Shown: positions 48,582 to 64,000 of the stretch, piece by piece
How the letters are laid out: each line of letters begins with the position of its first letter
Numbering within the stretch: the first letter of the stretch is position 1
DNA from: Oscillospiraceae bacterium
GTDB taxonomy: Bacteria; Bacillota; Clostridia; Oscillospirales; Ruminococcaceae
DNA: 64,000 nucleotides
Assembly: GCA_017481565.1 (NCBI GenBank)
Contig: JAFUOZ010000007.1
Location: 1-64,000 of the forward strand
Direction of reading: 5' to 3'
Position numbers and translations under genes: made by a program
Notes under the pieces: model-generated
The model's database searches: none
The model's input: the letters and a program-made list of their open reading frames with translations, nothing else
Told to the model about the DNA's origin: nothing

Positions 48582-48866
48582 AATAAAAAATCCTTCGGAG
48601 GATCGCAGAAAGCACGATTCTCCGAAGGCGATATATAATCACGGTCCCACTTCGGTTGAATATCACGGGGATATTCATCTCATTTCTCTTATAACGGAGA
48701 GTACCCGTGCGGAGATACACATATTATAATATATAATACTTCCCACCGCAGACTGACGGCCGCACTTCACTGCACCGATCTGCGCCGTCACACCCTACCG
48801 ACGCTCTCTGTAAGATCTGCACACAGCTACTCTTGCCGCTATGCCTTTACTCTATTATTTTTATTA
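48582..48866 (-). promoter_or_regulatory. T-box leader (cysteine) of cysE-cysS
   Basis: On the minus strand, AGAGAG (stem I region) is followed by a GAAGTGC segment in the usual specifier position (TGC = Cys, 48764-48762). The T-box antiterminator motif AAGTGGGACCGTG lies at 48653-48640. An intrinsic terminator CCTTCGGAG/CTCCGAAGG (48628-48592) is followed by ATTTTTTATTTT. Uncharged tRNA-Cys would favour read-through into cysE-cysS. Confidence 0.88.
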
Positions 48867-53814: not shown

Positions 53815-53860
53815 AAAGCGGTATATGATCCGATTTAAAAGATCATATACCGCTTTTATT
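53815..53860. terminator. Bidirectional terminator
   Basis: AAAGCGGTATATGATC (53815-53830) and GATCATATACCGCTTT (53841-53856) form a 16-bp stem followed by TATT. It separates the converging exporter and second GH113-like genes. Confidence 0.9.
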
Positions 53861-54845
53861 ATTTCAATTTATTGGTATACCAGTCGGTAAGGGTTTTTTC
53901 CGCTTTTTTTCCGTATATTGCAAAGCCTCTCTGATTTCCGGCTTCGTTTATATCATAAAGTCTTGTAGGCCAGTCCCACCAGAAAAATCCGCCGAACCAT
54001 GTCTCATCCTTAAATGCTTCAAGTGCGGAGCTGTAGAATTTATCCTGCTCGTCCTCGTCAAAGGGCAGGTCACGGTGAAGAAAATCCCATGGCATAGAGG
54101 CACAGCCCTCTGCACTGCGGCAGCCTATCTCCATAAAAACTATCTTCTTGTTTCCGAATTTTTCCGAAACAGCCTTAAGTCTCGGCTTTACCTTTTCCCA
54201 GCCTCTCTGCATATCCTCTGCGGTATTGCCTTCTTTTCCCACGGTATAATATGCAGATGTACCGATATAATCAAGTGCATCAAACCACTTTACATTTTCC
54301 TCTGCTCCGTGATTTGTATTATAGATAAGCTTTCCGTGATATATTTTTTTAACATCGTCGATAAGCCTGCGCCAGTACTGCTCCTTATGCTCGGTACCAA
54401 GCATTTCACAGCCTATGCACAGCATCTCACAGCCCATATCCTCCGCAATTTCCGCATAGTGACAGATAAATGCATTGTAACAGGAAAACCACTGCTCCCA
54501 GTAGCTTCCCCGTCTGTTATCTCCCACAGGCGCAAATTCGGTTTCGGGAAAGCTGATACGTGCTCTCCATACACCGTCTGCACAGTTTACAACAGGCTTA
54601 AGGCATACCTTAAGTCCCAGTGATTTCATTCTTTCAACAGCAAGGCATATCTCCCTGTCCGTTACAGTATAGCGATAATCAAAGCCGAAGTGTGTAGATG
54701 AAAAGGTCTCCTGTGCTACTCCGAATGCAAGTGCGACCCAGTCACCGCCCATTGCGGCAAGCCTTTTCATCGAAATAAACGCTTCCTCTGTTTTATACAT
54801 TCCCCTGCGGCCGTCCCAGCCGTAGGTAAAGCCCTTCATAAACAT
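53859..54845 (-). CDS. GH113-like glycoside hydrolase (copy 2)
   Basis: A 328-residue paralogue of the 51003 gene. FMKGFTYGWDGRRGMYK, LKVCLKPVVNCADGVWRAR, an acid/base candidate in LCIGCEMLGTEHKEQYWR, and a nucleophile candidate in IVFMEIGCRSAEGCAS. It also lacks a signal peptide. The start at 54845 has AGGA eight bases upstream. The conserved GCEM and E[IC]GC motifs are the same in both copies. It lies 21 bases after the YbaK stop. Confidence 0.82.
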   Translation of the reverse strand: MFMKGFTYGWDGRRGMYKTEEAFISMKRLAAMGGDWVALAFGVAQETFSSTHFGFDYRYTVTDREICLAVERMKSLGLKVCLKPVVNCADGVWRARISFPETEFAPVGDNRRGSYWEQWFSCYNAFICHYAEIAEDMGCEMLCIGCEMLGTEHKEQYWRRLIDDVKKIYHGKLIYNTNHGAEENVKWFDALDYIGTSAYYTVGKEGNTAEDMQRGWEKVKPRLKAVSEKFGNKKIVFMEIGCRSAEGCASMPWDFLHRDLPFDEDEQDKFYSSALEAFKDETWFGGFFWWDWPTRLYDINEAGNQRGFAIYGKKAEKTLTDWYTNKLK

Positions 54846-54866
54846 AATTTTTGTCCTTCCGTAAGT

Positions 54867-55343
54867 TTATAGAATAATATCTGCGGTAATTCCGTTTACT
54901 GCTCTGATAAGATCATCGGGGGCTGCCTCTATCTGCATACCGATACAGCCTGCACTCACCATGATAGTCTCACAGGGCAGACACTGCTCCGCAAATACGG
55001 TTTTATACTGCTTTTTCATACCCACGGGAGAACAGCCACCCCTGATATATCCCGTAACCGAATTTATCTCGCTTACCTTTATCATTTCAACGGATTTTTC
55101 GCCTACCGCCCTTGCCGCCTTTTTCATATCCAGTTCATGAGCAACAGGCACAACATAAACATAATAAGCCTTTGACGCTCCCCTTGTAACAAGAGTTTTG
55201 AATACTCTGTCAGGATCCTGATTTAAAAGCCTTGCAACGTTCAGTCCGTCAACAGCTTCCTTTCCATGAGGATATTCATGCACGCTGTATGATATTTTTG
55301 CTCTGTCAAGTATTCTCATAGCATTGGTTTTATTTCCTGCCAT
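54867..55343 (-). CDS. ybaK: YbaK/EbsC-type aminoacyl-tRNA deacylase
   Basis: A trans-editing enzyme that removes cysteine from misacylated tRNA-Pro. KISYSVHEYPHGKEAVDGL, VFKTLVTRG (lysine of the active site) and YIRGGCSPVGMKKQYKTVF with the conserved GGxSP-like motif. The length of 158 residues is normal. It lies in a minus-strand pair with the second GH113-like gene. Confidence 0.92.
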   Translation of the reverse strand: MAGNKTNAMRILDRAKISYSVHEYPHGKEAVDGLNVARLLNQDPDRVFKTLVTRGASKAYYVYVVPVAHELDMKKAARAVGEKSVEMIKVSEINSVTGYIRGGCSPVGMKKQYKTVFAEQCLPCETIMVSAGCIGMQIEAAPDDLIRAVNGITADIIL

Positions 55344-55456
55344 AAATGTTCACCGCTTCCTGAAAAATATACTTACTTATTATACATCACTCAGCGGATA
55401 ATTTCAATAGACTATCGGTAAATTTAGGGAATAAAATACAGCGTGCCGTTATTTCA

Positions 55457-58400
55457 TTATTTTATAAATCCGAATGATTTTATATCAAAATTGCTTCCCG
55501 GGAGGAAGGTAAGGGAAACAGTGCATTTTCCCGATATTTCTTCAATGGGGAATATTCTTTCGGTGTAATCCTCACAGCCTTCAAATTCAACGATCATTCT
55601 GCGCTCCGTATCGCCCTTTACAAGAATATTTATACTGTTCACAGGGAGAACGGAACGTCCCGTTACAGCTACCGCTGATGGTGATTTCTCCGAAAAATCA
55701 AAGCTTCCGAATTCAAGTACAACATTATTTCCGATACCTGTTACAGCGTCATCGGTAACTGTAAAGCTGTCGCCGTATATCTTTTCACATTCATTTGCAG
55801 GCAATGATGCAAATTCCTTTTCTCTCTTTTCAAAGAAAAAGCCCTCGATATCATAGCCGTTATCCGATTCAAATGCAATGGTATGGATTCCCTTAAGCGT
55901 CTTTGTAAGCTTATAGGTCTCGGGAATATATGTAAGCCAGATCGATTTTTTCCGGTATGTAAATTCTCCGATAAGCTCTCCGCCCTCGTCGGGAATTCCG
56001 TCATAGACCTTTATTCCCACTGCATTGGTACAGTTTGCAAATATGGGGAAGGTCACCGTATCACTGCCCATATTGCCAAAATCCACATTTTCAAAAGCAA
56101 ACCAGCTTCTGTCATAGGCAAACTTTGCGCCGTGCTTTATACCGTTTCCGATATTATCGCTTGCACGGGTATGAAGTCCGCCCTTTACAAGCTCATAGGG
56201 GTCAAATACGGCTGTGCCGAGTCCCTCTCCCGTTAATTTTACTGCCGAAAGGATATGATATTTATCCGTTCCGTTTTTACATAATGCACGTAAATAAAAT
56301 TCTCCGTCTCCGTTGCAGCGTACAGTAACAACGCCGTTTTCAACCGAAACTATCTCCGCAAGATTTGAATCGATACCCAGTACCGTGGTTATACGGTAAA
56401 CTATCTCATCACGGTAGGAGGCATTTTCGGGGAAAATTTCGGTACGGAATTTAAGCTCTCTGCATTCGGGAATAAATATCTTTTTCTCTCCCGCAAGCGC
56501 TATTTTTCTTACGGGGATATCATTTTCCTCACAGGGACAATCAGCTTCTCTTGCGGTATTTTCCTCAACAGCGGATATACCCTCGGCTATATCACAGGGG
56601 AGCGCCTTAAGCGTAAGAACACTGTCGGGAAGTCCCTTTGAGGATACCTTTACGGTAATATCTCCCGCTTCTGTTTTTGCTCCGATTATGGCAAGGAGCT
56701 TTCCCGAAAACAGTCTGCGTGAGGTGCTCTTATACTGCTCATAATCGGTAGAATCTCCGTTATCAAGTCCGATAAGACGTGCTGCGCCGCTTACGCTTAC
56801 GGTCACACGGTTATTGGCATTTGCTGTATGCTCACCGTCCTTATCGTAAGCGGATATATCAATATAGATAAGGTCTGTACCGTCAGCATTCATGGTATCC
56901 TTTTCCGCTGTAAGACGAAGCTCGGCAGTATCTCCGAAGGAACGTTTTATATCACGGGCGATCTCTGTACCATTTTCATCGTATGCTATTGCGCAAAGCT
57001 CGCCCTTTTCATATTTAATTACAGTATCGAGAGTAAGCTCTTTTCCGTGAAGATGATCTATCTCCTTTGAGGCAATTTCATTTCCGTTAAATAAAAGCTT
57101 TACCAGCGGCGCATTTGATGTGACACGTACATCTATATCCTCTCCCTCGGTATGATCCCAATAAGGAAAAATATGTACAAAGGGAGACTTTTTATAATCG
57201 GTCCATTCCGCACGGAAAACATATGCGCTGTCCTTGGGGAAGCCTGCCGTATCATACTGTCCGAAATAGCTGTTTTTAGTGGAATATGGGGTAGGCTCGC
57301 CTATATAGTCAAAGCCTGTCCAGATAAATTGTCCCGCACAGAATTCTGCGTCACGGTCTGCAATGATACAAGCCTCCGTATTATCCGCTCCCCAGCCTGT
57401 ACAGCAGTTTCCCAAAGACGAACACTGCTCGTCATCGTCTGCAAGCACAGATTGTGATAAGGGGAAATGATATATTCCTCTGCTTTGGATAACGGAAGCT
57501 GTTTCACTGCCGTAGATCATCCAGTCGGGATGCTCACGGTGATGCTGTTCATAAAGCCGCTCCGCATAGTTATAGCCTGCAAGCTTTACGATATCCGCAC
57601 ATTTCTGAGCATTCTCACTCTGCATATAATTTGAACCGATAGTCACATAGCCGTTGCAGCGCGGGTCATGTCTGCGCACATTCATCATAAGCAGTGATGT
57701 GACCTCCTGTCCCCTGTCGCTTGCATGAGTATCATATATTTCATTTCCGATACTCCAGCCTATTATTGACGGATGATTTCTGTCACGGCGTACCCATGAG
57801 GCAACGTCCTTGTCAACCCACTCCGTAAAAAATCTTGCATAGTCATATTCTGTCTTGGGAAGCTCCCACATATCAAAGCCTTCCGAAAGGATAAGAAAGC
57901 CCATTTCATCAGCCAGCTCCATAAGCTCCTTTGCAGGCATATTATGACTTGTACGAATTGCATTTACTCCCATGATACGAAGCTTTTCAAGTCTGCGCTT
58001 TATTGCTGCCCTGTTTACCGCTGCGCCCAGCGCTCCCGAATCATGATGCTCACAGCTGCCGTGGAGCTTTATATGTCTGCCGTTAAGGAAAAATCCCTTA
58101 TCGGAGGTGAATTCAATATCTCTGAAACCGAAACGGTTCTCCTCACGGTCAATGACCGTACCATTGCTTACAAGCTCGGTAACAAGAGTATATAAGCATG
58201 GTGAATCAATATCCCACAGCTCAGGTGATTCTACATTGAGAATATCGTCGTTTACGGTATACTTTCTGTCAGGCTTTCTTATAAATTCGTCAACACAGCT
58301 TCTGTCGTAAGCACAGCAGCCTCTTTCAAGAGCGGCTGCGGCTTTATCTCCGCTATAAATAGTATGTCTTAATACAAGTCCTGCGGCGGATATTCCTTCG

Positions 58401-58903
58401 GGACGCTCCGTTTCGGTTGTTACGGATACGGTACCGTCAATATCTGCGCTTATGTAGATACCATAGGGCACTATCCTGCATTCCGGATATTCCATAAGAT
58501 ATACGGGACGGAAAATTCCCGCTCCCGAATACCACCTTGAATTAGGCTCACGATGATCCACACGCACTGTTATAAGATTATCCCCCTCCTTAAGAAGCTC
58601 CGTTATCTCAAACTCAAAAGAGGAATAACCGTATTTCCATTCCCCTGCAAGTCTGCCGTTTACATAAACCTTACTGTCCATATAAACGCCGTCAAAGCGG
58701 AGAGAAATTATCTTATCATCGGGGATATAGGAAAGCTTTTTCCTGTACCAGCCTGTTGATGTTTCATAAAGATTTTTTGTATCGTAAATCAGCCAGTCAT
58801 GAGGAACATCTATCCTTTTCCATTCAAGATTTTCCGAATACTCCGTATCTATCGGATTTTTTGAAAATTCCCAGTTGTCGCAAAACAGCTTTTTTATACT
58901 CAT
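55457..58903 (-). CDS. GH2 beta-galactosidase-like enzyme, multidomain (1148 aa)
   Basis: An intracellular glycosidase of family GH2. N-terminal sugar-binding and immunoglobulin-like domains (SIKKLFCDNWEFSKNPID; DVPHDWLIYDTKN), a (beta/alpha)8 barrel with HGSCEHHDSGALGAAVN and GWSIGNEIYDTH (acid/base Glu) and MIYGSETASVI (nucleophile Glu), FIWTGFDYIGEPTPY, then Ig-like and DUF4982 domains. The last ~300 residues look like extra beta-sandwich, carbohydrate-binding-type domains. There is no signal peptide. The start at 58903 has AGGAG upstream. It is a single transcript from the promoter at 58935-58963. Confidence 0.9.
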   Translation of the reverse strand: MSIKKLFCDNWEFSKNPIDTEYSENLEWKRIDVPHDWLIYDTKNLYETSTGWYRKKLSYIPDDKIISLRFDGVYMDSKVYVNGRLAGEWKYGYSSFEFEITELLKEGDNLITVRVDHREPNSRWYSGAGIFRPVYLMEYPECRIVPYGIYISADIDGTVSVTTETERPEGISAAGLVLRHTIYSGDKAAAALERGCCAYDRSCVDEFIRKPDRKYTVNDDILNVESPELWDIDSPCLYTLVTELVSNGTVIDREENRFGFRDIEFTSDKGFFLNGRHIKLHGSCEHHDSGALGAAVNRAAIKRRLEKLRIMGVNAIRTSHNMPAKELMELADEMGFLILSEGFDMWELPKTEYDYARFFTEWVDKDVASWVRRDRNHPSIIGWSIGNEIYDTHASDRGQEVTSLLMMNVRRHDPRCNGYVTIGSNYMQSENAQKCADIVKLAGYNYAERLYEQHHREHPDWMIYGSETASVIQSRGIYHFPLSQSVLADDDEQCSSLGNCCTGWGADNTEACIIADRDAEFCAGQFIWTGFDYIGEPTPYSTKNSYFGQYDTAGFPKDSAYVFRAEWTDYKKSPFVHIFPYWDHTEGEDIDVRVTSNAPLVKLLFNGNEIASKEIDHLHGKELTLDTVIKYEKGELCAIAYDENGTEIARDIKRSFGDTAELRLTAEKDTMNADGTDLIYIDISAYDKDGEHTANANNRVTVSVSGAARLIGLDNGDSTDYEQYKSTSRRLFSGKLLAIIGAKTEAGDITVKVSSKGLPDSVLTLKALPCDIAEGISAVEENTAREADCPCEENDIPVRKIALAGEKKIFIPECRELKFRTEIFPENASYRDEIVYRITTVLGIDSNLAEIVSVENGVVTVRCNGDGEFYLRALCKNGTDKYHILSAVKLTGEGLGTAVFDPYELVKGGLHTRASDNIGNGIKHGAKFAYDRSWFAFENVDFGNMGSDTVTFPIFANCTNAVGIKVYDGIPDEGGELIGEFTYRKKSIWLTYIPETYKLTKTLKGIHTIAFESDNGYDIEGFFFEKREKEFASLPANECEKIYGDSFTVTDDAVTGIGNNVVLEFGSFDFSEKSPSAVAVTGRSVLPVNSINILVKGDTERRMIVEFEGCEDYTERIFPIEEISGKCTVSLTFLPGSNFDIKSFGFIK

Positions 58904-58934
58904 ATAAACCGCTCCTATTTTATGGATTTTGTTT

Positions 58935-58963
58935 ATTATATTAAATTCGTGACCATTTGTCAA
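58935..58963 (-). promoter_or_regulatory. Promoter of the GH2 gene
   Basis: On the minus strand TTGACA (58963-58958), a 17-base spacer and TATAAT (58940-58935). Confidence 0.9.
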
Positions 58964-59022
58964 GTTTATATTTTGAACATGAGGAGTATTGTTTTTTTAT
59001 CATCAGCATATATATTGCTCCC

Positions 59023-59124
59023 CCAATTAAACCTTGCCAAAATGTAGAATACAATTTTGGGGAAACTACGTAAAATACAGATTAAAACCTTTTTAGATCA
59101 TCAAAAGTGGCAAGGTTTAATTGG
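59023..59124. mobile_element. MITE-like element with 17-bp terminal inverted repeats
   Basis: CCAATTAAACCTTGCCA (59023-59039) and its exact complement (59108-59124) bound a 102-bp non-coding unit. The inner 68 bp is AT-rich and carries no gene. The size and perfect ends fit a non-autonomous transposon. No clear target duplication is seen. Confidence 0.65.
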
Positions 59125-59158
59125 AACATCAATAGTGCGTACCTGATTAATGTCCATA

Positions 59159-59187
59159 TTGACATAAAATGCTTTTTACTATATAAT
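59159..59187 (+). promoter_or_regulatory. Promoter of the acyltransferase-CapA-SGNH gene
   Basis: TTGACA (59159-59164), a 17-base spacer and TATAAT (59182-59187). Confidence 0.9.
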
Positions 59188-59220
59188 TATGAATGAAAAC
59201 ATAAAAGGTAGGTTATATAT

Positions 59221-62178
59221 ATGAAAACTAACAAAATTGCCGACGGCAGAAGCTGCTATTGGGATAACATAAAAGGAATTCTTATTTTTCTTGTGGTATT
59301 TGCCCATTTTCTGTACAGCTTTCAGCACTTTGAAAATACAGCTCTGCTGACAGATATTATATATACTTTTCATATGCCCGCATTTGTATTTGTTTCGGGT
59401 TATTTCAGCAAAAGCGATAATTCACGCAGTCCCCTGTCACTTTTCAGGCTTGCGGCTGCATATATCCTGTTTAACGGCGGCTGTATGCTGTTTTCTCTGC
59501 CTGACGGTATTTTCTCAGGCTCAGTTCCTTATTATTCCTATTGGTATCTGCTTGCACTTATTATATGGCGTGTTACTGTACCATATATATCAAAGATCGG
59601 ACATATACTGCCGATACTTATCCTGTTTTCTCTGCTGACAGGCTTCTGGGGTGATATCGACAACAGCTTTGCCGCTGCACGTATCATATGCTTCTATCCT
59701 TATTTCATGGCAGGATATTTTATGGATAAGGATAAGGTCAATGCTATTCTTTCTGCAAAAAAATCAAAGAGACTTGTTCTGGGGCTTTCATCTCTTGCGC
59801 TGTTTATTACAGGATCATATCTGGCTGTACGCTTTTTCCGTTACTCCGATGATGCACTGCTTATGGCTGCATATACCGACAGAAACGGCTTATTCGGACG
59901 TATTGCACTTATTGCGGTCGCCTGTCTGGGAATCGCCGCACTTCTTATACTTACAGCAGATAAGCAGATACCCTTGCTTACACAGATAGGCAGAAATTCT
60001 CTTTCGGTATATCTTTGTCACAGAGGAATAACGCTTTTATATGCTGATACATTCCCTGAGCTTCCCGAAAATCTGATGATATCCTCAGCGCTGATATGCA
60101 CTGCCGCAATTATGATAGTTTTCGGCTCTGAAACGGTATCCTCTGTTATAAACAGTTTTCTTACAGTATGCGCAAAGGCTTTTCTGCCCGATAATAAGAA
60201 AAAGCGCATTATAGCAGCAGGTGTTACTCTTGCCGTATATATACTCACACTGAATTTCTTTCCCGCAAAAAAGATATTGTCGATTGCTCCGATAATACCG
60301 CTTACAGACACAGCCGCAGCGGAAAAGCAAAATGAGGATATAATGTACAGAAAAATGTCTGCGGAAACAGCTGAAAAATATGACAATGCCTTTCGTATAC
60401 TCTTTGCAGGAGATCTGATACTTTTAGAGGATCAGGTAAGAAATGCCCGAAACAGCTCAGGGTATGATTTTTCACCTATGTTCGAATATACAAAGGAATA
60501 TATCTCCTCTGCCGATCTTGCGGTAGGTGTTTTCGAGGGTCCTATGGCAGGAGATGAAAACGGCTATTCATCAAGTAATTACGATGACGGAAAGAATTTA
60601 TATCTGAATTTTCCCGATGAATTTGCTTATGCCATAAAGGACGCCGGCTTTGATCTTGTTACTACTGCCAATAATCATCTGCTGGATATGGGAAAAGACG
60701 GCGCTTACCGTACTCTTGATATACTTGATGAATCAGGTCTTGACCATACAGGCTCTTACCGCAGTCCCGAGGAAAAGGCTGCAGACAGGGTAAAGCTGAT
60801 AGAAAAGGACGGTATAAAAATTGCTTTCCTTTCATATACCTACGGCACAAACGGCTATGAAACGGAATACATAATGAATACTGAGGGCTTTTCGCACATA
60901 ACCTCATTTATTACCGATCCCGCAAGCGAATGCTTTGAACAGGCAAAGGAAAATGTCCGTCTTGATTTTGAAGCTGCAAAGGCGCTTTCCCCCGATATTA
61001 TTGCTGTTCTTCCTCATATGGGAACTCAGTTTGAAAATACGCCCGATGATTATCAGAAAACCTGGTGCGATATATTCAGGGAATACGGTGCTGATATTAT
61101 CCTCAGTGATCATACTCATTCGGTACAGCCTGCGGAGATCACTGATAATGGTGATAATACAGTCTATACACTGTATTGCCCCGGAAATTATACGAATATA
61201 TACCGTGAGTACAACGGTGACGCTTCCCTGCTTGCAGAGGTATATATCGACCGTGAAAGCAAGGAAATAATCGGCGGCGGAATAATTCCCATGTATACAT
61301 TATCAACGGTGAACGGAAATTATCGTCCGATCCCTGTGTATGACATTATGACAAATGACCGTGTACGTGATATCATCAGCACCGATGACCTGAAACGTGC
61401 TGAAGAGGTATATGCTCATATAACAAAGATAATGTTCGGGTATGAAATATTCCCGTCCTCTGCCGAAAAAAGACTGCTTTTTGACACGGAGGGATATTTC
61501 CGTCAGGCTGTCTCCCCTGTTACTGTTACGGATGAGATGAAAAACGGAATATTCTATAAAATGCTTACCGAAGCAAAGGGTGTATGCTTTGTGGGCGACA
61601 GTGTAACAGAGGGTACAAAAAACGGCGGATACGGCTGGTATGAACCGTTAGAGGAATACATAAACGGCGGAATATACAATGTATCAAAGGGCAGTACTAC
61701 AATAGGTCTTATTTCAGAACGTTCAGATGAAATGATAAATAATGACGCTGATCTTTATGTTATCGCTGTAGGTACAAATGATGTGCGCTACCGTGATGAA
61801 AGCATCTGTGCCATGACAGCAGAGGATTATTCACAGGCAGTTGACAAGCTTTGCTGTACTGTTGCTGCCGCAAAGCCTCAGGCTGAGTTTATTCTTATCG
61901 CTCCATGGACATCGGTTGACGGAGACAGCGTAAGTGCTCTGGGATATGATCAGAAAATCGCTCTTAACAATGAATATACCGCCGCTCTTGAAAAGCTGTG
62001 CAGCGAAAAGGGCTATATCTTTATTAACGCAAATACCTATATCGAAAGCATAATAGGTCAGAAGGCAGGACGTTATCCGATCTCTGATTATCTGCTTGAT
62101 CATATCCACCCGAATGTACACAAGGGAATTTATCTTTATTCGGAAGCTGTTCTGAAATACGGACTTGACAAAAGCTGA
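59221..62178 (+). CDS. Acyltransferase-3 / CapA metallophosphatase-like / SGNH hydrolase triple fusion (985 aa)
   Basis: A large envelope enzyme. Residues 1-~345 are a 10-helix acyltransferase-3 domain (DNIKGILIFLVVFAHFLYSF with the catalytic-type His; FHMPAFVFVSGY), which usually moves acyl groups across the membrane. Residues ~390-705 are a CapA/PGA_cap domain (ILFAGDLIL, VGVFEGPMAG, TTANNHLLDMG, VLPHMGTQFE, ILSDHTHSVQP). Residues ~785-985 are an SGNH hydrolase/transferase with a complete triad (GDS at S794, GTND at N853, DHIH with D960 and H963). Acyltransferase-SGNH fusions are known; CapA between them is not one I know. It probably modifies a surface polymer. Pnuc follows but has its own promoter. 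Confidence 0.88.
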   Translation: MKTNKIADGRSCYWDNIKGILIFLVVFAHFLYSFQHFENTALLTDIIYTFHMPAFVFVSGYFSKSDNSRSPLSLFRLAAAYILFNGGCMLFSLPDGIFSGSVPYYSYWYLLALIIWRVTVPYISKIGHILPILILFSLLTGFWGDIDNSFAAARIICFYPYFMAGYFMDKDKVNAILSAKKSKRLVLGLSSLALFITGSYLAVRFFRYSDDALLMAAYTDRNGLFGRIALIAVACLGIAALLILTADKQIPLLTQIGRNSLSVYLCHRGITLLYADTFPELPENLMISSALICTAAIMIVFGSETVSSVINSFLTVCAKAFLPDNKKKRIIAAGVTLAVYILTLNFFPAKKILSIAPIIPLTDTAAAEKQNEDIMYRKMSAETAEKYDNAFRILFAGDLILLEDQVRNARNSSGYDFSPMFEYTKEYISSADLAVGVFEGPMAGDENGYSSSNYDDGKNLYLNFPDEFAYAIKDAGFDLVTTANNHLLDMGKDGAYRTLDILDESGLDHTGSYRSPEEKAADRVKLIEKDGIKIAFLSYTYGTNGYETEYIMNTEGFSHITSFITDPASECFEQAKENVRLDFEAAKALSPDIIAVLPHMGTQFENTPDDYQKTWCDIFREYGADIILSDHTHSVQPAEITDNGDNTVYTLYCPGNYTNIYREYNGDASLLAEVYIDRESKEIIGGGIIPMYTLSTVNGNYRPIPVYDIMTNDRVRDIISTDDLKRAEEVYAHITKIMFGYEIFPSSAEKRLLFDTEGYFRQAVSPVTVTDEMKNGIFYKMLTEAKGVCFVGDSVTEGTKNGGYGWYEPLEEYINGGIYNVSKGSTTIGLISERSDEMINNDADLYVIAVGTNDVRYRDESICAMTAEDYSQAVDKLCCTVAAAKPQAEFILIAPWTSVDGDSVSALGYDQKIALNNEYTAALEKLCSEKGYIFINANTYIESIIGQKAGRYPISDYLLDHIHPNVHKGIYLYSEAVLKYGLDKS

Positions 62179-63079: not shown

Positions 63080-64000
63080 TTATTCAACGCCCTTCATAAG
63101 TGCATCAATTATCTCGGGATATCTCCATGTAAGTTCGGCTCTGTTAAGAAGTCCGAAGGTCTCTCCTGTTACAAAGGCATTGTTATCCCACCATACACAT
63201 GGTATGCCGTATTCCTTTGCCTTCTTTACATAATACTCCGCATGAGCTGTTCTTGCTTCTGTATTGAAACGGTTTCTTGTACCGAATTCACCGATAACAA
63301 CAGGTGTACCGTTCTTTAAGAAACGATCCTCTACTCTTGCCATTACCAAATCAATATCATTTGTATCGGAGGTATTATCAACGCTCCATTCCTTTGTGCC
63401 GTTGTCTGCAAGAGAAAAGCTGTAGGGTGTATATGCATGAACAGATACGATAACTCTGTCATCTTCCGGAACAACAAATTCATCAAGTACCTTTGGCTCT
63501 GAGGAGGCTGCATAGGTGGGTACCATAAGGCTTCTCTTAGGATTATTCTTTCCCGATGCTCTTATTGTATCAACAAAAACCTGATTCAGTTGATTGATAC
63601 AATCACGTGATTCTTCGTCTCCGCCTGTCCACTCAAGAGGTGTTCCCTTAAGTCTTGGTTCGTTCATGCCCTCAAAGATAAGATGCTCATCATAACCGCC
63701 GAAACGTTCCGCTATCTGCTTCCATACAGCCGCAAGCTGAGTCTTTGCGGATTCAAGATTATCATAGGTGGGCATATGCCATTCCTCATGATGCAGATTA
63801 AGTATAACATACATATCATTGTCGATACCGTAGTTTACAACTTCCTGAACACGATCAAGCCATGCTTCGTCAATAGTATACTCGGGAGCCTCGCCGAGAT
63901 GCTGGAACCAGGTCACAGGTACACGGAGAACATTGAAGCCTGCATTCTTTACCATATCTATCATGGTCTTAGTGGTAACGGGATTTCCCCATGCAGTCTC
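63080..64000 (-). CDS. GH5 endoglucanase-like glycoside hydrolase (5' end outside window)
   Basis: A cellulase-type (beta/alpha)8 enzyme. The frame runs off the right edge; the first visible residues are ETAWGNPVTTKTMIDMVKNA. GFNVLRVPVTW, LNLHHEEW, HLIFEGMNEPRLKG (acid/base Glu), IVSVHAYTPYSFS and GTPVVIGEFGTRNRFN (nucleophile Glu) are GH5 motifs. The beginning, including any signal peptide or dockerin, is not in view. The stop at 63080 is followed by a terminator. It suggests cellulose or mannan degradation. Confidence 0.92.
   Translation of the reverse strand, partial: ETAWGNPVTTKTMIDMVKNAGFNVLRVPVTWFQHLGEAPEYTIDEAWLDRVQEVVNYGIDNDMYVILNLHHEEWHMPTYDNLESAKTQLAAVWKQIAERFGGYDEHLIFEGMNEPRLKGTPLEWTGGDEESRDCINQLNQVFVDTIRASGKNNPKRSLMVPTYAASSEPKVLDEFVVPEDDRVIVSVHAYTPYSFSLADNGTKEWSVDNTSDTNDIDLVMARVEDRFLKNGTPVVIGEFGTRNRFNTEARTAHAEYYVKKAKEYGIPCVWWDNNAFVTGETFGLLNRAELTWRYPEIIDALMKGVE

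Follow-up and report, generated by a model that had tools for sequence, protein, structure and literature searches.

A rare AT3-CapA-SGNH triple-domain fusion in an Oscillospiraceae genome: conservation, predicted architecture and a possible role in modifying an extracytoplasmic polymer

The 64-kb stretch of DNA analysed here (hereafter the window) comes from a gut bacterium and contains a gene in which an acyltransferase-3 (AT3) domain, a CapA-type module and an SGNH domain are joined in a single reading frame (Table 1). The gene is present in one copy in its own genome (2.45 Mb, 87% complete). It is preceded by a ribosome-binding site and by a perfect sigma-70 consensus promoter, of a form that occurs seven times in the 64-kb window against an expectation of 0.01. 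One of these promoters, at 62165, begins within the final codons of the fusion gene, and the gene that it would drive is a pnuC-like one downstream; Rfam matches in the pnuC leader were to eukaryotic miRNA models and fell far under the gathering score, and the leader was set aside as a plain hairpin. Glycoside hydrolase genes flank the fusion gene (window 53859-58963 and 63080-64000), and include GH113, GH2 with CBM6 and, at the end of the window, a putative cellulase-like gene. The GH2 and fusion genes diverge, and a MITE-like element of about 120 bp (window 59014-59134) lies between them; its arms are inverted repeats (CAATTAAACCTTGCCA) separated by 84 bases, and the element folds with a z of -5.3. 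Other contigs of the genome have further copies (C23, C90 and C112) or a single arm (C12). A T-box leader (103 bits) was also detected on the minus strand, at window 48621-48850.

Table 1. Positions in the window of the fusion gene, the domains that it encodes and the associated expression signals.
Feature	Position	Strand	Comment or basis
AT3-CapA-SGNH fusion gene	59221..62178	+	985 aa ORF, no internal stops (0)
Perfect sigma-70 consensus promoter TTGACA-N17-TATAAT	59159..59187	+	Upstream of fusion gene
Ribosome-binding site AAAAGGTAGG	59203..59212	+	8 bases 5' of ATG, from sequence
Perfect TTGACA-N17-TATAAT promoters	1208, 5745, 12810, 28195, 58935, 59159, 62165		64-kb window
AT3 domain, residues 13-300, 10 TM helices	59257..60120	+	Pfam, model, family alignment
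TM11, residues 326-346	60196..60258	+	Puts C-terminal part outside; charge count
CapA/PGA_cap metallophosphatase-like module with C-terminal extension, residues 386-758	60376..61494	+	Pfam 393-657, MslH fold over whole length
SGNH domain, residues 777-980; S794, N853, D960, H963; block II S825	61549..62160	+	Pfam, fold match, alignment

The N-terminal domain is recognised by the Acyl_transf_3 HMM (PF01757; E 1e-20, 74.2 bits against a cut-off of 31), which also matches above its cut-off in the other full-length fusion members scanned. The K/R-x10-H motif, which is universal among AT3 proteins (PMC7448272), takes the form K18-x10-H29 in TM1 and is invariant in all 18 full-length members, as are H51, N259, S260 and H267. 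In the outer loop between TM3 and TM4, Y105-S106 is invariant (18/18), and in the outer loop between TM7 and TM8, Y218 is present in 17 of the 18; the TM3-4 outer loop of OafA contains S112, which is essential (PMC7448272). Judging from the alignment, Y105 and Y218 are perhaps candidate outer-loop acyl carriers. The RXXR of OafA TMH3 was sought in TM3 of the fusion protein (71-91, PLSLFRLAAAYILFNGGCMLF) and is absent there, and a PDB sequence search with the AT3 domain returned zero matches.

The central module is a strong match to PGA_cap (PF09587; E 2e-53, 181.7 bits against a cut-off of 27). Residues D398, E439, N485, H486, D489, H599, H631 and H633 are invariant in the 18 full-length fusions, and the matching columns are also invariant in seven aligned standalone CapA proteins. 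In an alignment with MslH, E439, N485, H486 and D489 correspond to E44, N87, H88 and D91, and D398 corresponds by position to D11; H599 and H633 are matched to H259 and H295 by way of a standalone homologue and the family alignment, this stretch being weak on its own. The mono-Ca site of MslH is formed by E44, N87, H259 and H261 (PMC10406935). In the fusion, the H261 ligand is replaced by Gly601, and the HxH histidine that is missing from MslH is present as H631; the residue set thus corresponds to a YmdB-like site, as set out in PMC10406935, except for YmdB Asn40, which is without a counterpart (Gly440). CapA is the most conserved of the three domains, with 27% invariant columns as compared with 20% for SGNH and 12% for AT3. 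Strong purifying selection on CapA is seen in one close pair, G158/G066, with a dN/dS of 0.09 as against 0.26 for AT3.

The C-terminal domain matches Lipase_GDSL_2 (PF13472, residues 790-965; E 1e-12, 49.3 bits against a cut-off of 32.9). S794, N853, D960 and H963, which include the Ser-Asp-His triad, are invariant in the 18 full-length members. At block II (position 825), the window protein has Ser, as do the two most remote members, and the other 15 of the 18 have Gly; in OatA and PatB, Ser or Asn at this position has been associated with transferase function (PMC12148441). When SGNH-only relatives were sought in 249 genomes of the phylum, fusion proteins were the only matches above 1e-12. 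The nearest standalone SGNH, which is 46-47% identical to the fusion SGNH and begins at the linker, comes from a distant genome within the phylum (L074:8562-9215, minus strand), where its neighbour is a flagellin gene and neither CapA nor AT3 adjoins it; it has perhaps split off from the fusion. An earlier sequence-only reading of this DNA had described an AT3-CapA-SGNH fusion with complete motifs, and the description is borne out by the three Pfam matches, all above cut-off, and by motif residues that are invariant or nearly so, the putative metal-site residues of CapA, present and invariant in the family alignment, among them.

An AlphaFold2 model built with 15 homologues (pLDDT 76) has ten AT3 helices and an eleventh at 326-346, followed by two globular domains. 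When the model was compared with solved structures, residues 8-314 matched HGSNAT (TmAT fold; Z 16.6, rmsd 4.8, 285 aligned). Residues 386-758 of the full-length model matched MslH over the whole length (Z 28, rmsd 3.4, 313 aligned), and residues 775-982 matched GDSL lipases and acetylxylan esterases (Z about 16.5). The CapA-SGNH ectodomain modelled alone gave a pLDDT of 83.8 and a pTM of 0.83, with CapA matching MslH at Z 30. At this pTM, CapA and SGNH are confidently predicted to be packed as a defined unit, not loosely strung together. Short loops contain 12 Lys and Arg residues on the inside and 2 on the outside, and this count, together with TM11, predicts that both CapA and SGNH lie outside the membrane. 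None of the top 50 structures in the fold searches spanned CapA and SGNH together, and a PDB search with the whole-family profile returned GDSL/SGNH chains only.

Among 396 genomes of the family that were searched, the genome containing the window and 12 others have full-length open copies with the same architecture. These 12 homologues are about 47-52% identical across nearly the whole length; full-length homologues overall are about 42-52% identical, and are alike in domain order and length. The same 396 genomes include one with a disrupted copy (G066) and four more with AT3-part remnants or contig-end pieces, and the fusion was found in none of the three other sampled genomes of its own genus. 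Three named MAG contigs also match, two of them open (L003, L004) and one with an internal stop or frameshift (L002). Beyond the family, full-length fusions were detected in another family of the order (G646), in another lineage of the class (G794) and in another class of the phylum (G1194), where G1047 also has a deleted copy. About 3% of genomes in the family have the fusion, and outside the family the figure is about 1% or less. No full-length copy was found on plasmids (0 of 72,556) or in phage records (0 of 50,697), nor was the fusion found on viral contigs. The fusion family is real, conserved across large distances, rare and patchy; a chance ORF or an assembly chimera is ruled out, since the identical three-domain order recurs in independent genomes.

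Identity to the window CapA is 50% or more for fusion CapA domains and 38% or less for standalone CapA proteins; identity to the window AT3 is 39% or more for fusion domains and 32% or less for others. In quick trees, for which standalone relatives were sampled in part, the fusion domains form one clade for CapA (SH-aLRT 100; 21 rows against 28 standalone) and one clade for AT3 (SH-aLRT 99; 24 rows against 10 standalone). These clades make a single origin likely, and the fusion would then have been made once and afterwards inherited or transferred as a unit; repeated assembly is a poor fit to single CapA and AT3 clades. The insertion of CapA into an existing AT3-SGNH pair, as the sequence-only reading had it, finds no backing here, since no CapA-less close relative was found apart from decayed or truncated alleles. 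A Rosetta-stone search for separate neighbouring AT3, CapA and SGNH genes also returned none.

Disrupted copies come from draft genomes, and some of them may be assembly faults. The copy in G066 has an early stop and a frameshift; in G358, AT3 is joined in frame to the final SGNH residues; G080 retains AT3 only, at a site that in G326 is syntenic and occupied by the full gene; in G367, a stop lies just inside CapA; and G1047 has a deletion within AT3. Decayed alleles were recorded as L020, L021, L017, L018 and L076, and in the first two of these, at syntenic sites, the AT3 part is still open and most of the ectodomain is lost. A stop flagged in G200 (L008) proved to be the normal terminator of an intact ORF. 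Its frequent absence and occasional decay mark the gene as dispensable, and the pattern would fit a gene for surface modification that is useful without being essential.

The neighbours of the fusion gene vary by genus, and include trp genes, ABC exporters with a TetR-like regulator, tRNA-synthetase genes and glycoside hydrolases, these names being mostly read from the sequences rather than taken from profile matches. No neighbourhood is kept across genera, and no polymer-synthesis cluster lies beside the fusion gene, so that no acceptor is indicated by gene context.

The preferred reading, in which confidence is evenly divided, is that the fusion is an OatA/OafB-like transmembrane O-acyltransferase with a functional CapA module that acts on the same extracytoplasmic acceptor polymer. 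Cytosolic acyl-CoA would donate an acyl group, probably an acetyl group, to the 10-TM AT3 domain through the K18/H29 pair; AT3 would then display this group at the outer face, where its carrier is perhaps Y105 or Y218, each a Tyr in an outer loop. S794 of the SGNH domain would then accept the acyl group and hand it to a hydroxyl of the extracytoplasmic polymer. The CapA-type putative metal-dependent module, packed against SGNH, may bind the same polymer or a lipid-linked precursor, where it could trim or transfer a phospho- or amide-linked group, or else hold the chain for acylation. The models for such steps are the AT3-SGNH mechanism of OatA, in which acyl-Tyr is followed by acyl-Ser (PMC12148441), and the AT3 pore model of OafB (PMC9833829).

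An acyl relay of this kind is favoured by the invariance of the K-x10-H motif, of the SGNH Ser, Asn, Asp and His and of the CapA site residues in 18 members reaching another class of the phylum, as well as by the predicted folds and topology, the strong constraint on CapA and the single fusion clades. The missing OafA RXXR, the lack of a conserved neighbourhood that would point to an acceptor, the dispensability of the gene and the two alleles that keep AT3 without most of the ectodomain are counted against it, and the block II Gly of 15 of the 18 members, being like that of ordinary hydrolases, counts against a transferase reading. As regards the CapA module, the conserved metal-site residues would argue for catalysis, and its placement, together with what is known of the extension in OafB, argues for acceptor handling. 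Coupled trimming or linking plus acylation of one polymer by a single polypeptide, as suggested in the sequence-only reading, would be plausible. The narrower proposal, that a metal-dependent CapA and the AT3-SGNH relay act in turn on one surface polymer that is not gamma-PGA, is possible, if doubtful.

It is somewhat unlikely that the CapA module is instead structural, serving as a non-catalytic spacer or acceptor-binding platform, like an enlarged OafB SGNH extension, in an ordinary AT3-SGNH O-acetyltransferase. The segment that precedes SGNH in OafB sets acceptor specificity (PMC7448272), and a comparable role would suit both the prediction of CapA-SGNH as one packed unit and the lack of CapA partner genes. 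However, the metal-site and acid-dyad residues are invariant in the 18 fusions and in seven standalone CapA proteins, and CapA is the most constrained domain.

A writer-eraser arrangement, in which AT3 alone acylates and SGNH is a de-O-acylase that edits or removes groups together with CapA, is improbable. In those single-chain AT3-SGNH proteins that have been studied, SGNH is the transferase (PMC9558356, PMC12148441), and the window protein has Ser at block II; these points are set against the block II Gly and complete oxyanion set in 15 of the 18 members, the acetyl esterases that are the nearest folds, and the existence of AT3-only acyltransferases (PMC9558356).

Among solved CapA-type structures, MslH is the nearest (Z 28-30), and might suggest that the CapA module is an MslH-like epimerase acting on an exported peptide, which AT3-SGNH then acylates. 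The likelihood of this is very low, given that the replacement of H261 by Gly and the presence of the HxH histidine indicate an ordinary YmdB-type site, that the NCBIfam MslH profile gives the fusion protein 23.3 bits against a cut-off of 700, and that an adjacent precursor peptide gene was not noticed.

Finally, a part in poly-gamma-glutamate capsule assembly (the CapA/PgsA role) plus acylation, for which the Pfam name PGA_cap and the CapA homology speak and to which the sequence-only reading had linked the module, has next to no probability and is rejected as far as the genomes allow, since PgsC (PF14102) was found in none of 15 fusion-bearing genomes (a B. subtilis control was positive), PgsB (TIGR04012) gave only matches below its cut-off in the same 15, no pgs genes adjoin the fusion gene, and the fusion CapA is the only PGA_cap domain found in its own genome (87% complete).

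Each of the three domains is familiar, and it is their AT3-CapA-SGNH combination, a variation on the AT3-SGNH theme, that appears to be new; it may well be that protein databases list the architecture without comment. The sequence-only reading had turned on whether homologues share the fusion and with what function: the close homologues do contain the same fusion, and a known function for it was not found. According to a 2022 review, in which CapA is unmentioned, the common fusion partners of AT3 are SGNH and alanine racemase, and a text search, in which subscription journals were thinly covered, found nothing on AT3 with CapA. AT3 proteins decorate many bacterial surface polymers, and the three-part fusion offers a handle on how AT3 hands an acyl group to a distant outer domain, as well as on the roles of CapA-type domains outside gamma-PGA synthesis. 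The family is small and sharply bounded, and is testable through three active sites.

Comparison with known systems places the fusion protein among several partial relatives. VanT resembles it in having AT3 fused to a non-SGNH C-terminal enzyme domain, the AT3-alanine racemase combination being the second most common AT3 fusion (PMC9558356), but the C-terminal part of VanT is alanine-racemase-like, whereas the fusion has CapA and SGNH. The FN3-CapA-DUF6270 proteins of the same bacterial family (L052:2699-6121 and L053:4661-8047; about 1130 aa) are likewise long proteins in which CapA is joined to another domain, with a weak FN3/Big2-like N-terminus, CapA and a C-terminal DUF6270 (PF19786); they differ in having no AT3, a distant CapA (29-31% identity) and another partner domain. 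One genome, G258, contains both an FN3-CapA-DUF6270 protein and the triple fusion. With CapA/PgsA (PF09587) and MslH, the fusion shares the metallophosphatase-like fold, the YmdB-like D/E/N/H/D/H/H residues and the MslH-type C-terminal extension, but it is membrane-anchored by AT3 and TM11, continues into SGNH, occurs in genomes with no PgsC and no PgsB above cut-off, and is without the MslH H261 ligand. With OatA, OafB and PglI, it shares the N-terminal 10-TM AT3, TM11, the outside C-terminal SGNH with Ser-Asp-His and the K/R-x10-H in TM1; it differs in that its TMH3 is without the RXXR that is essential in OafA and that most members have Gly at block II. In OatA and OafB, SGNH comes directly after TM11 or after a short linker or extension, and from this arrangement the fusion protein departs, with a CapA/MslH-sized module (386-758) between TM11 and SGNH.
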